Below, piece by piece: positions 961 through 3,026 of a stretch of DNA of 8,340 bases. Position 1 is the first letter of the stretch. Each line of letters opens with the position of its first letter. The position numbers and the translations under genes were made by a program. Source of the DNA: an uncultured Desulfobacterales bacterium (GTDB lineage Bacteria; Desulfobacterota; Desulfobacteria; Desulfobacterales; G020354645); NCBI GenBank assembly GCA_947259865.1, contig CAMYNZ010000160.1, positions 1-8,340 on the forward strand, read 5' to 3'. A model generated the notes under the pieces. It had not been told where the DNA came from. It searched no databases and worked only from the letters and a program-made list of their open reading frames with translations.

Positions 961-1025
961 AATAGGGGACGTTTTCAACTTATTAACTTCCGATCTAAGA
1001 GACCAAGTTAAAAAGTTAGGAACGT
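961..1025. repeat. REP-like palindrome, left arm and most of right arm (interrupted by IS)
   Basis: The left arm at 961-989 starts AATAGGGGACGTT and ends TTAACTT; a 15-nt loop follows (990-1004), then a right arm from AAGTTAAAAAG through AACGT at 1005-1025. The right arm stops abruptly at GT (1024-1025), and its missing last bases, CCCCTATT plus one C of overlap, are found at 2760-2767. Joining 1025 to 2760 gives two 29-nt arms that match at 25 positions. This architecture is like REP/RAYT-associated repeats, and a second element of similar design lies at 4415-4515. Confidence 0.8.
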
Positions 1026-1031
1026 TATATA
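1026..1031 (+). promoter_or_regulatory. -10 half of a circle-junction promoter
   Basis: TATATA occupies the first six bases of the IS left end. No good -35 lies at the right distance in the inserted state. When the ends join in an excised circle, TTGACA of the right end (2737-2742) would lie exactly 17 bp upstream, giving a near-consensus sigma-70 promoter reading into the transposase. Confidence 0.6.
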
Positions 1032-1093
1032 TAAAAAGAGCAAAGGTATATACTCCCCCGTATAGCATAGAAAAAATTTATTATCGCGTAGAT

Positions 1094-1160
1094 AAAAAAA
1101 TAACCTCCTGATAGTTTGAGGCTGCCAAAATCAACCCATAACCAAACTAACAGGAGGTTA
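1094..1160. promoter_or_regulatory. Leader hairpin that buries the transposase RBS; terminator on the other strand
   Basis: 1101-1118 pairs with 1143-1160 at 17 of 18 positions (TAACCTCCTG against CAGGAGGTTA is perfect), with a 24-nt loop. The AGGAGG Shine-Dalgarno at 1152-1157 lies fully inside the stem, 5 bases before the ATG, so any transcript that enters from upstream would fold and hide it. Read on the minus strand, the same stem is followed directly by seven T (complement of A at 1094-1100), the form of an intrinsic terminator for antisense transcripts. Translational occlusion of this kind is known for other IS such as IS10; the effect here is inferred. Confidence 0.75.
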
Positions 1161-1162
1161 CC

Positions 1163-2449
1163 ATGAACATTGAAGACACTACCAGGCGAGAGCAATTTAG
1201 TCAAATCAAAACTGAGATCTGTGGATCGGACAAGTATCTGGTGATCGGCATTGATGTGGCCAAGGATATACATCATGCTTTTATGGGCACCGCCACGGGT
1301 CAATCACTTTTACGGAAACTGGTCTTTGAAAATAACCTTGACGGTTTTGGCAAATTGTTGGAGCACAGCCAAGCGGTCAAGGCCCGTAACGCGCTGAGCA
1401 AAGTGGTCTTCGGTCTGGAACCGACCGGAAACTACCACAAACCGCTGGCAGCGTATCTGATCCGTTGCGGCTGCCAGGTGGTGCTGGTGACCGGTAAAGC
1501 GGTGAAAAACAACCGCGAACAACTGGATGGTCGCTGGGACAAAAATGATGACAAAGATGCGGCCAACATCGCCGATCTGGTCTCGCGCGGCCGCTGTCTA
1601 TACTATGACCTGCCGTCATCGGATCTTGGCCAACTGCGGCAGGTGCTGTCGCTGCGAAGGCGCCTGAAAAAAGAAGAGCACCGGCTGCGCATGAACATCC
1701 GCAACAATCTGCTGGCCCAGTACTTTCCCGAGCTGGATGCATATTACAGCGCCTGCGAAGCCGAAACGCTGGCCATCGTAAGCCGGTGTCTGGATCCCAA
1801 TCAGATTGCCGGCATGCACTTTGATGAGTTCTTCACCCGGGTGACCACCAAAAGGCGTGGGATTGCCCAGAAGCTGCGGTTGCAAAAAATCCATCGGGCA
1901 GCCATCCAATCCGTGGGCTGCCCGATGGGGCCGGTGGTCCAGATCGAGGCGCAGCTTCTGGTCAACAAACTCGGCCAAGTCCGCAGTCAGCTCAAACAGG
2001 TTCAACAGTGGATGGAAGATATCGCCTGTGGGTTTGCCGAGTACAGTTACCTGTTAACCATCCCCGGCTTTGGGCCCTATGTTGCCTCCACAGTTCTGGC
2101 GGCCATCGGCAATCCCTGGCGTTTTGACACTGCCGGCCAGCTGCTCAAATTGGCCGGCTATGATTTGAGTGCCAGCCGCAGTGGTAAAAACAGCAACACA
2201 GCTATTGCAGTGATCTCCAAAAGGGGCAACAGCCAGCTGCGCTATGCCCTGTATCAGGCTGCCCGGGTGGCTTCCAGCCGCAGTCGAGACTTTATCAACT
2301 ATTTTACCGGCTTGCTTCGTGGCCGTGAGCGTGAGCGCGGTATCAAAACCAAGATGCGGGTTAAGTTAGCCGCCAAAATGCTCAGAGTTGCCTGGGCGCT
2401 AATGAAGAAAAAGCAAGTGTTTAATCCGGACTATCTGTTTATAAAATAA
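1163..2449 (+). CDS. IS110-family transposase (RNA-guided DEDD/Ser recombinase)
   Basis: A 428-aa recombinase that catalyses excision and insertion of the element as a circle, with sites chosen by a bridge RNA. The N-terminal RuvC-like (DEDD_Tnp_IS110) domain shows D31 in GIDVAKD, E86 in GLEPTGNY, and D129/D132 in the KNDDKDA motif, so all four acidic residues are present. Residues 160-285 are a charged, helical linker. The C-terminal Transposase_20 domain starts near 297 with LLTIPGFGPYVAST, followed by LAGY and a SRSGKN stretch whose Ser (338 or 340) is the likely nucleophile, then ISKRGNSQLR. The length is normal and the frame intact. The start is fixed by AGGAGG at 1152-1157. An A/T-rich hairpin (2441-2447 with 2453-2459) overlaps the stop. 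The putative guide RNA follows directly. Confidence 0.95.
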   Translation: MNIEDTTRREQFSQIKTEICGSDKYLVIGIDVAKDIHHAFMGTATGQSLLRKLVFENNLDGFGKLLEHSQAVKARNALSKVVFGLEPTGNYHKPLAAYLIRCGCQVVLVTGKAVKNNREQLDGRWDKNDDKDAANIADLVSRGRCLYYDLPSSDLGQLRQVLSLRRRLKKEEHRLRMNIRNNLLAQYFPELDAYYSACEAETLAIVSRCLDPNQIAGMHFDEFFTRVTTKRRGIAQKLRLQKIHRAAIQSVGCPMGPVVQIEAQLLVNKLGQVRSQLKQVQQWMEDIACGFAEYSYLLTIPGFGPYVASTVLAAIGNPWRFDTAGQLLKLAGYDLSASRSGKNSNTAIAVISKRGNSQLRYALYQAARVASSRSRDFINYFTGLLRGRERERGIKTKMRVKLAAKMLRVAWALMKKKQVFNPDYLFIK

Positions 2450-2461
2450 ACAATTTTATCA

Positions 2462-2662
2462 ACTTCGGCGAGAGAGCCCGATCACGGACGTTGAGGCATT
2501 AGACCTCGGGAGGGACAATAAAAGGGCCTCTCACGGAACATAAAAGTCTGGATAAGGGATGATGGACGGCTGAAAGTAAAAGCACGTCGGATAAACGTAA
2601 CGATCAGACGTAAGGTTCGCATCGACTGAGAGAATCGCCGAAAAATTACTGTAAACAGTAAT
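2462..2662 (+). ncRNA. Putative bridge (seeker) RNA of the IS110 element
   Basis: The non-coding right end folds into two tandem stem/internal-loop units. Loop 1: GAGAG(A)GCCC at 2470-2479 pairs with GGGCCTCTC at 2524-2532, with an inner stem GAGG 2493-2496 / CCTC 2504-2507. Loop 2: GTCTG 2546-2550 pairs with CAGAC 2605-2609, with an inner stem GACG 2565-2568 / CGTC 2585-2588. TTCGGCGA (2464-2471) can pair with TCGCCGAA (2635-2642) to close the whole, and a perfect 7-bp hairpin, ATTACTG TAAA CAGTAAT, sits at 2645-2662. In IS110 elements one loop reads the target and the other reads the IS ends, and short matches of the right kind lie in both loops here. The exact 5' and 3' ends and the promoter are not visible to me. 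Confidence 0.7.
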
Positions 2663-2736
2663 GGAGAAATGCGCCCACAAAAAATGGACAGTGTAACTAC
2701 TCGTAATTATTAAAATAAATAATTTCTACTTCCCAC

Positions 2737-2742
2737 TTGACA
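2737..2742 (+). promoter_or_regulatory. -35 half of a circle-junction promoter
   Basis: A perfect TTGACA in the IS right end, reading outward. 2743-2759 is exactly 17 bp, so in a joined circle the next six bases are TATATA of the left end (1026-1031). In the inserted state the six bases at that spacing are CCCCTA, which is no -10. Junction promoters that switch on only after circularisation are known in the IS110 family. Confidence 0.6.
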
Positions 2743-2759
2743 GCAGGACTATAGGATGT

Positions 2760-2767
2760 CCCCTATT
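2760..2767. repeat. Distal end of the IS-interrupted REP-like palindrome
   Basis: CCCCTATT completes the right arm broken off at 1025; with the core GT before it, GTCCCCTATT (2758-2767) is the exact reverse complement of AATAGGGGAC at 961-970. The broken kinase gene starts at the next base, so the palindrome also marks the edge of that gene remnant. Confidence 0.8.
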
Positions 2768-3026
2768 GCACAATTTGTCACCCGCCGCTGAAAACTTCAT
2801 TAAGATCACCGTTTCCGACACCGGCATCGGAATCAATCCTGAAGATCTGGTTCGGATATTCAAGCCCTTTGAGCAGGTAGAAAATGCTGCCAGTCGCAAG
2901 TACGAAGGCACCGGTCTGGGTTTGTCGCTGACAAAGAATCTGGTAGAGCTGCACGGCGGCCTTATCTGGACCGAAAGCGAGGGGGAAAATAAAGGAAGCA
3001 AATTCAGCTTTGCCATTCCGGTTTAA
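2766..3026 (+). pseudogene. Histidine kinase fragment: C-terminal half of the ATPase domain
   Basis: The 86-residue frame carries the second half of a HATPase_c domain: G1 box DTGIGI at residues 18-23, F box IFKPFEQ at 31-37, and G2 box GTGLGLSL at 48-55, ending GSKFSFAIPV as full-length sensor kinases do. The phospho-acceptor His, the dimerisation helices and the N box are absent. Only a TTG could serve as a start, with no Shine-Dalgarno, and the homology stops within about ten codons of the REP palindrome. The gene was therefore cut at its 5' side, with the REP/IS at the break; no kinase sequence is visible on the left side of the palindrome. The kinase type (hybrid or simple) cannot be told. 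Confidence 0.85.

Follow-up and report, generated by a model that had tools for sequence, protein, structure and literature searches.

What is encoded between the recombinase gene and the right end of an insertion sequence in this uncultured Desulfobacterales genome, and to which group of elements does it belong? The window (the whole 8,340-nt stretch of DNA analysed here) carries an IS110-family element at 1024..2759 on the forward strand, the strand on which all of its features are given. The ends were read from the sequence, with the core dinucleotide GT at both of them (1024-1025 and 2758-2759), and the element measures 1734 bp when one core is counted; similar ends, found by motif, occur in its relatives. 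An earlier note had placed a putative bridge RNA in the right end. We suggest, with a probability of about 0.92, that 2464-2642 does encode the bridge RNA of its own element. This is the best explanation because three features pass comparative tests: the stems carry compensatory changes, the left target guide tracks the insertion site and the left donor guide covaries with the element's end.

The recombinase gene (1163..2449) specifies a 428-aa protein with DEDD_Tnp_IS110 (100.3 bits) and Transposase_20 (69 bits) domains, which scores 191.1 bits against NCBIfam NF033542, "IS110 family RNA-guided transposase" (cut-off 140). Its closest solved structures are those of IS621 (E 1.2e-11) and ISCro4, and the alignment to IS621 retains the D, E, D, D and S positions that we take to be the catalytic residues of that enzyme. 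Among 8,000 candidates scored in a protein search, 5,406 were retained at E <= 0.001, and nearly all of the 120 matches listed are likewise 428 aa long. We also note a hairpin (1101-1118 with 1143-1160) over the ribosome-binding site AGGAGG of the gene; its CCTCC...GGAGG arms are present in many relatives, and it possibly exerts translational control over the recombinase.

The RNA lies downstream of this gene and folds as a three-way structure. Helix P1 (2464-2471 with 2635-2642) closes a target hairpin (2476..2527), in which stems 2476-2479/2524-2527 and 2493-2496/2504-2507 flank loop 1, and a donor hairpin (2529..2631), which has outer stems 2529-2534/2626-2631 (with a C-C mismatch at 2534-2626) and 2537-2541/2613-2617, and inner stems 2546-2549/2606-2609 and 2565-2568/2585-2588 flanking loop 2. 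Two internal loops in series had been proposed; the two guide loops stand, but they sit in separate hairpins joined by the closing helix and not along one stem. The minimum free energy z-score of 2450-2670 is -2.48, and Rfam at gathering scores gave no match within the window.

The fold was examined in an alignment drawn from 34 relatives taken from species genomes. The RNA is present in the window and at 27 of these 34 loci, 3' of the stop codon wherever this is readable; several of the loci without a match stop short of the RNA position or contain a partial gene. From these first 28 RNA sequences 25 were aligned (the window and 24 relatives), with L006 (deletion), L025 (cut) and L027 (insertion) omitted, and the alignment yields a single three-way fold of closing helix, target hairpin and donor hairpin, with two-sided changes at 24 of 39 predicted pairs. 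In the retained 35-pair structure 94.5% of cells are paired, again with two-sided changes at 24 pairs. None of 500 shuffles matched this structure, and sliding the partner lowered pairing to 33-46%, a comparison biased toward the real over the slid versions in that the structure was derived from the same 25 sequences. Across 78 distinct sequences, which were aligned to the covariance model and are hence biased toward it, 94.4% of cells are paired and 31 of the 35 pairs show two-sided changes. The compensatory stem changes that the earlier note had named as support are thus present.

A covariance model built from the 25 sequences matches 2462-2643 with 178 bits, the window itself being one of them. 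It finds the RNA in every one of the 13 genomes that had already yielded a relative. At E <= 1e-10, 46 of the 291 genomes examined in the class around G002 contain it, and for the phylum around G009 the figure is 6 of 245. The 97 matches, from 99 sources, were reduced to 86 by dropping 11: duplicates (L090, L091, L103 twice, L105, L127 and L130), the cut L025 and weak partial second matches in L022, L123 and L124. The contig of L003 carries two RNA copies, the first with an internal deletion, and in L122, L123 and L124 a degenerate second stretch resembling the target hairpin lies 5' of the RNA, where it overlaps the last part of the recombinase gene (seen as weak model matches in L123 and L124, and by eye in L122). 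A stretch similar to GGAGNAGTGCG at 2664-2676, just 3' of the RNA, is common to many relatives.

The insertion site itself is an imperfect palindrome, one arm of which is split by the element (AATAGGGGACGT ... ACGT|CCCCTATT), and it resembles REP-like targets. Its left part (961..1025) begins with AATAGGGGACGT at 961-972 and contains an inverted repeat, 969-989/1005-1025, whose arm resumes right of the element as CCCCTATT (2760-2767). A search for GAACGTCCCCTATT in 5 related genomes gave 0 exact matches, and the window's target repeat was not found there. By eye, 2766-3026, directly right of the element, looks like a fragment of the C-terminal ATPase domain of a histidine kinase.

All four short guide matches that had been read in the two loops exist where they were placed, with the wobbles as given. 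In loop 1, GGACGT (2486-2491) corresponds to the left flank and core, GAACGT (1020-1025), with one G-T wobble, and GGGAC (2512-2516), the right target guide, is complementary to GTCCC (2758-2762). In loop 2, GGGATG (2556-2561) corresponds to the right end AGGATG (2753-2758) and GTAAC (2597-2601) to GTTAT (1024-1028), each with one wobble. When the letters of the loop segments were shuffled, all four matches recurred once in 200,000 trials (the product of the single rates is 7e-6); since the criterion was set after the matches were seen, this only shows that chance is a poor account, and it is the comparative tests that decide.

For the left target guide, these tests cover 38 insertions with a recognisable left end, that is, 37 plus one from G195, represented by its one copy with GT; L006, L048, L118 and L113 were excluded. 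The guide begins earlier than had been thought, running to 6 nt before the core (2484-2489, or 2484..2491 with the core GT). Guide and flank agree at positions -2, -3, -4 and -5 in 33, 26, 31 and 28 of the 38 insertions, against expectations of 22.8, 16.4, 21.1 and 13.3; C at -1 is identical in all 38, -6 is nearly always A, and beyond it agreement hardly exceeds expectation, if at all. None of 20,000 permutations reached the observed mean match, at every length tried. Because related elements use related sites, flanks were also swapped between nearest relatives with different guides, chosen by the RNA backbone without the guides: the own flank fitted better in 14 of 18 cases and worse in 2, with 2 ties. 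On a tree of the RNA backbone, the positions listed give 1 to 4 independent pairs each, none significant. The left target guide therefore varies and follows the flank, as the earlier note had said guide bases should.

On the right side of the target there is almost no variation: in the 59 of 86 elements compared, the target guide rarely departs from GGGAC or the flank from GTCCC. At position 6 matches are slightly more frequent than expected (20 against 14.7, reached in 797 of 20,000 permutations), and positions 7-9 did not track the flank in the same 59 elements. A longer pairing had also been considered, in which GGACGTT is an exact 7-nt complement of AACGTCC across the empty site; we reject it because its last base, the one following the core GT, is T, C, A or G among the relatives.

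It could be argued that this RNA is simply a structured element of the recombinase mRNA's 3' UTR, acting in stability, termination or translation control, and that the likeness of its loops to the element's ends and the target is due to common descent alone. Its start some 15 nt past the stop codon fits such a role, as does the finding that 2350-2800 contains no sigma-70-like consensus promoter of its own. Against this, the loop letters track an insertion site located outside the element, and the same RNA is retained in the gene-less mini-elements described below; we regard this account as very improbable.

For the bridge RNA reading, the donor side can be followed through the element's own ends. 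The donor test used 63 of the 86 elements, after exclusion of 12 duplicates or broken copies and of 11 in which no right end could be recognised; in L033 and L117 the reading was done by eye. At the variable base, the left donor guide (2556..2561) and the right end read G-G in 40 elements, A-A in 17, T-T in 1, G-A in 3 and A-G in 2, an association with a Fisher probability of 2.3e-10 on 62 elements (the T-T case left out). Written as guide and right end, the commonest combinations are GGGATG with AGGATG(T) (38) and GGAATG with AGAATG(T) (13), followed by AGAATG with AGAATG (2) and AGGATG with AGGATG (1). Further forms are GGAATG with GGAATG, AGGTTG with AGGTTG and GGTATT with AGTATG (1 each) and GGGATT with GGATTG(T) (3), and the discordant ones are GGAATG with AGGATG (2) and GGAATG with AGAAGG (1). 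The three G-A cases represent a variant with one extra T in guide and end alike. L100 and L101, which combine GGAATG in the guide with AGGATG at the end, are exceptions to the rule, and L033 obeys it in part only. The 63 elements are less independent than their number implies: the RNA-backbone tree, with 59 rows, has 4 changes of the guide base, 3 of the end base and just 1 independent pair on supported branches, which leaves the tree test underpowered.

These ends were located by motif, the left ones by GTTATA (partly chosen by eye) and the right ones by a motif ending in GT, and the letters of the core and end motifs are therefore constant by construction. For the same reason the right donor guide (2597..2601), which reads GTAAC in most rows and ATAAC or TTAAC in some, cannot show covariation, the left ends sought by GTTATA being unable to vary. 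With target and donor guides both readable from the sequence, the sites of such elements can be predicted and tested.

The ends also suggest how the RNA might be expressed. The left end reads GT followed by TATATA (1024..1031), which would serve as the -10-like element of a circle-junction promoter, and the right end (2737..2759) holds a -35 box, TTGACA (2737-2742), 17 nt from the end of the core, together with the donor AGGAT and GT. The hexamer with TTGAC or TTTAC lies exactly 17 nt before the core end in 28 of 30 elements, and 16 and 18 nt before it in the other two; elements with the extra T in the right end keep the spacing of 17. The left end reads on as TATAT in the 30 elements with both ends. 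The search motif for left ends includes TATA but places no constraint on the spacing. The arrangement is that of the circle-junction promoter described for the IS110 family in passages of PMC11208160.

We therefore posit the following cycle only as a proposal consistent with these features. The recombinase would excise the element as a circle, joining the right-end -35 box to the left-end TATATA at a distance of 17 nt, and the resulting promoter, which in the window would lie about 1.4 kb upstream of the RNA, unlike in IS621, would drive transcription across the gene and into the RNA. Once released from the 3' UTR, the RNA would be bound by the recombinase; in loop 1 the left guide would pair with the bottom strand of the genomic site and the right guide, GGGAC, with GTCCC on its top strand, around the GT core; loop 2 would pair likewise with the junction of right and left end, and the enzyme would exchange strands at the core. 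It might be objected that the copy in the window is a bridge RNA element already decaying and inactive, as its imperfect left target match (4 identities, a wobble at -3 and a mismatch at -5 over the six guide positions) and the C-C mismatch in the donor stem could indicate. Yet the reading frame is intact, and the catalytic letters, the ends, the core and the promoter parts are all in place; we consider decay unlikely, if a risk to be reckoned with.

Bridge RNAs and seekRNAs are already known, and what the window adds is an uncommon layout. According to the parts of PMC11187229 consulted, the left guide comes first in the IS110 group and the order is reversed in IS1111, whose elements (ISEc11, ISPa11 and ISKpn4 among the seekRNA systems) have terminal repeats of 7-17 bp, an RNA from the non-coding sequence that follows the transposase gene and enzymes of 330-350 aa. 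The element could then be an IS1111 member with an ordinary right-end RNA, a placement to which the RNA's position downstream of the gene would lend itself (PMC11208160 and PMC11187229, as far as their passages go), as would the 7-8 bp terminal repeats, in register, of L019, L097 and L111, the 3 of 30 elements that reach at least 7 bp. In the window, however, the repeat is 4 bp long; only TAT is invariant in all 30 elements, with the fourth position matching in 27, later positions weakly, and single elements reaching 6-8 bp. Furthermore, the left, bottom-strand guide (2484-2491) stands 5' of the right, top-strand guide (2512-2516), the reverse of the IS1111 order, and the enzyme has 428 aa. 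We accordingly hold IS1111 membership to be distinctly improbable. Similarity to IS4321 as an outside reference does not separate IS110 from IS1111: the recombinase scores 48 bits against IS4321 and 47 bits against IS621, values that come from different programs and from pairwise comparisons only (IS621, ISCro4 and IS4321).

The RNA of the window and its relatives thus combines, as read from the sequence, an IS110-type guide order and short repeats with the downstream position typical of IS1111, in place of the left-end position usual for IS110; this combination is unusual. The location is an exception already in print, because PMC11187229 notes, in the passages available, that in some IS110-type elements the non-coding region is downstream; those passages gave no description of an RNA for that group. 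Its "green" group of the IS110 family (Fig. 1b), compared here by text, shares with the window's element a downstream non-coding region and an IS110-like enzyme, and the two are possibly the same group.

Among the closest known systems is IS621 (PMC11208160, in part; PDB 8wt6). It likewise has a recombinase with a DEDD domain and a C-terminal domain, an RNA in which the target loop precedes the donor loop and both internal loops carry a left guide to the bottom strand and a right guide to the top strand, a core dinucleotide, a short ATA/TAT repeat and a circle-junction promoter. In contrast, the window's RNA is 3' of the gene and not in the left end, a long-range closing helix gives it a three-way junction, its core is GT instead of CT, and its enzyme has 428 aa against 328 aa. 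If our reading is correct, the known recombinases gain a clade of about 428 aa whose bridge RNAs lie in the right end, and RNA position and guide order are shown to be separable traits.

For six of the 86 matches to the model, the distance from left end to RNA is only 74-115 nt. These mini-elements (L036, L048, L039, L094, L097 at 246-619 on the reverse strand, and L111) comprise left end, RNA and right end within 373-428 bp, which leaves no room for a gene; L110 resembles L111 except for a changed left end. Including L110, the seven RNAs reach model scores of 159.6-181.4 bits, and the -35 box is altered to TTTAC in most of the mini-elements, TTGAC being kept in L039. That L094 (genome G112) and L097 (G002) are 97% identical yet stand in different flanks suggests that this mini-element has moved recently. 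The 374-bp G002 element is nearly whole in 4 of 291 genomes (G002, G112, G104 and G259), with a further copy at a contig end in G184, and 37 of the 291 contain some match to it, mostly to the RNA alone. The own left guide agrees with the own site at 6 of six positions in L036, 5 in L094, 4 in L039 and 3 each in L097 and L111; because the own guide fits only 3-4 of six there, some of these sites may have been chosen by another RNA. The mini-elements would be evidence that a bridge RNA can work for an element lacking a recombinase, a point relevant to the spread of such systems and to the separate supply of RNA and enzyme. In the open-access literature searched we found no paper on non-autonomous IS110 elements with a bridge RNA; the passages of MITE papers found there do not link MITEs to IS110, and PMC2680597 mentions MiniMdi3, a MITE some 400 bp long and a relative of ISMdi3, the family of which is not given in its passages.

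A second modular relative is the element of about 3.58 kb in genome G195 (L151 6521-10098, with copies in L132-L135 and L137-L140). Eight copies have left end and RNA similarly spaced, a full-length comparison of two gave 99.8% identity over 3,648 bp, and a ninth RNA sits in a copy with just 573 bp in common. Before the right end are two RNA modules, one with a target part only (L151 9547-9629) and one complete (9800-9978). By eye, the target-only module is exact for the left flank and core (GCGTCCGT) and for the core and right flank (TGAACAC), while the complete RNA is a poorer fit to the site (CGTCCGT; 7 of 9 on the right); AGGTTG, the donor guide of the complete RNA, equals the altered right end AGGTTG. 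The core register here was picked after inspection, and the right-guide test used a register two bases further on. It is conceivable, although we offer it tentatively and with more doubt than belief, that guide functions are split in such relatives, complete bridge RNAs riding on gene-less mini-elements moved in trans by the recombinases of relatives, and the target-only module of G195 giving the better-fitting target guides and its complete RNA the donor loop. These modular relatives, the mini-elements and G195, are the part most worth experiments.

The flanks of the G195 copies resemble what we take to be integron attC sites; two patterns for empty attC-like sites gave 0 matches, and the target is read from the flanks only. 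One of the eight left ends reads GT and seven read GA. The recombinase is 51.5% identical to that of the window, and the element carries as cargo a Toprim-domain protein and a 148-aa protein without a Pfam match.
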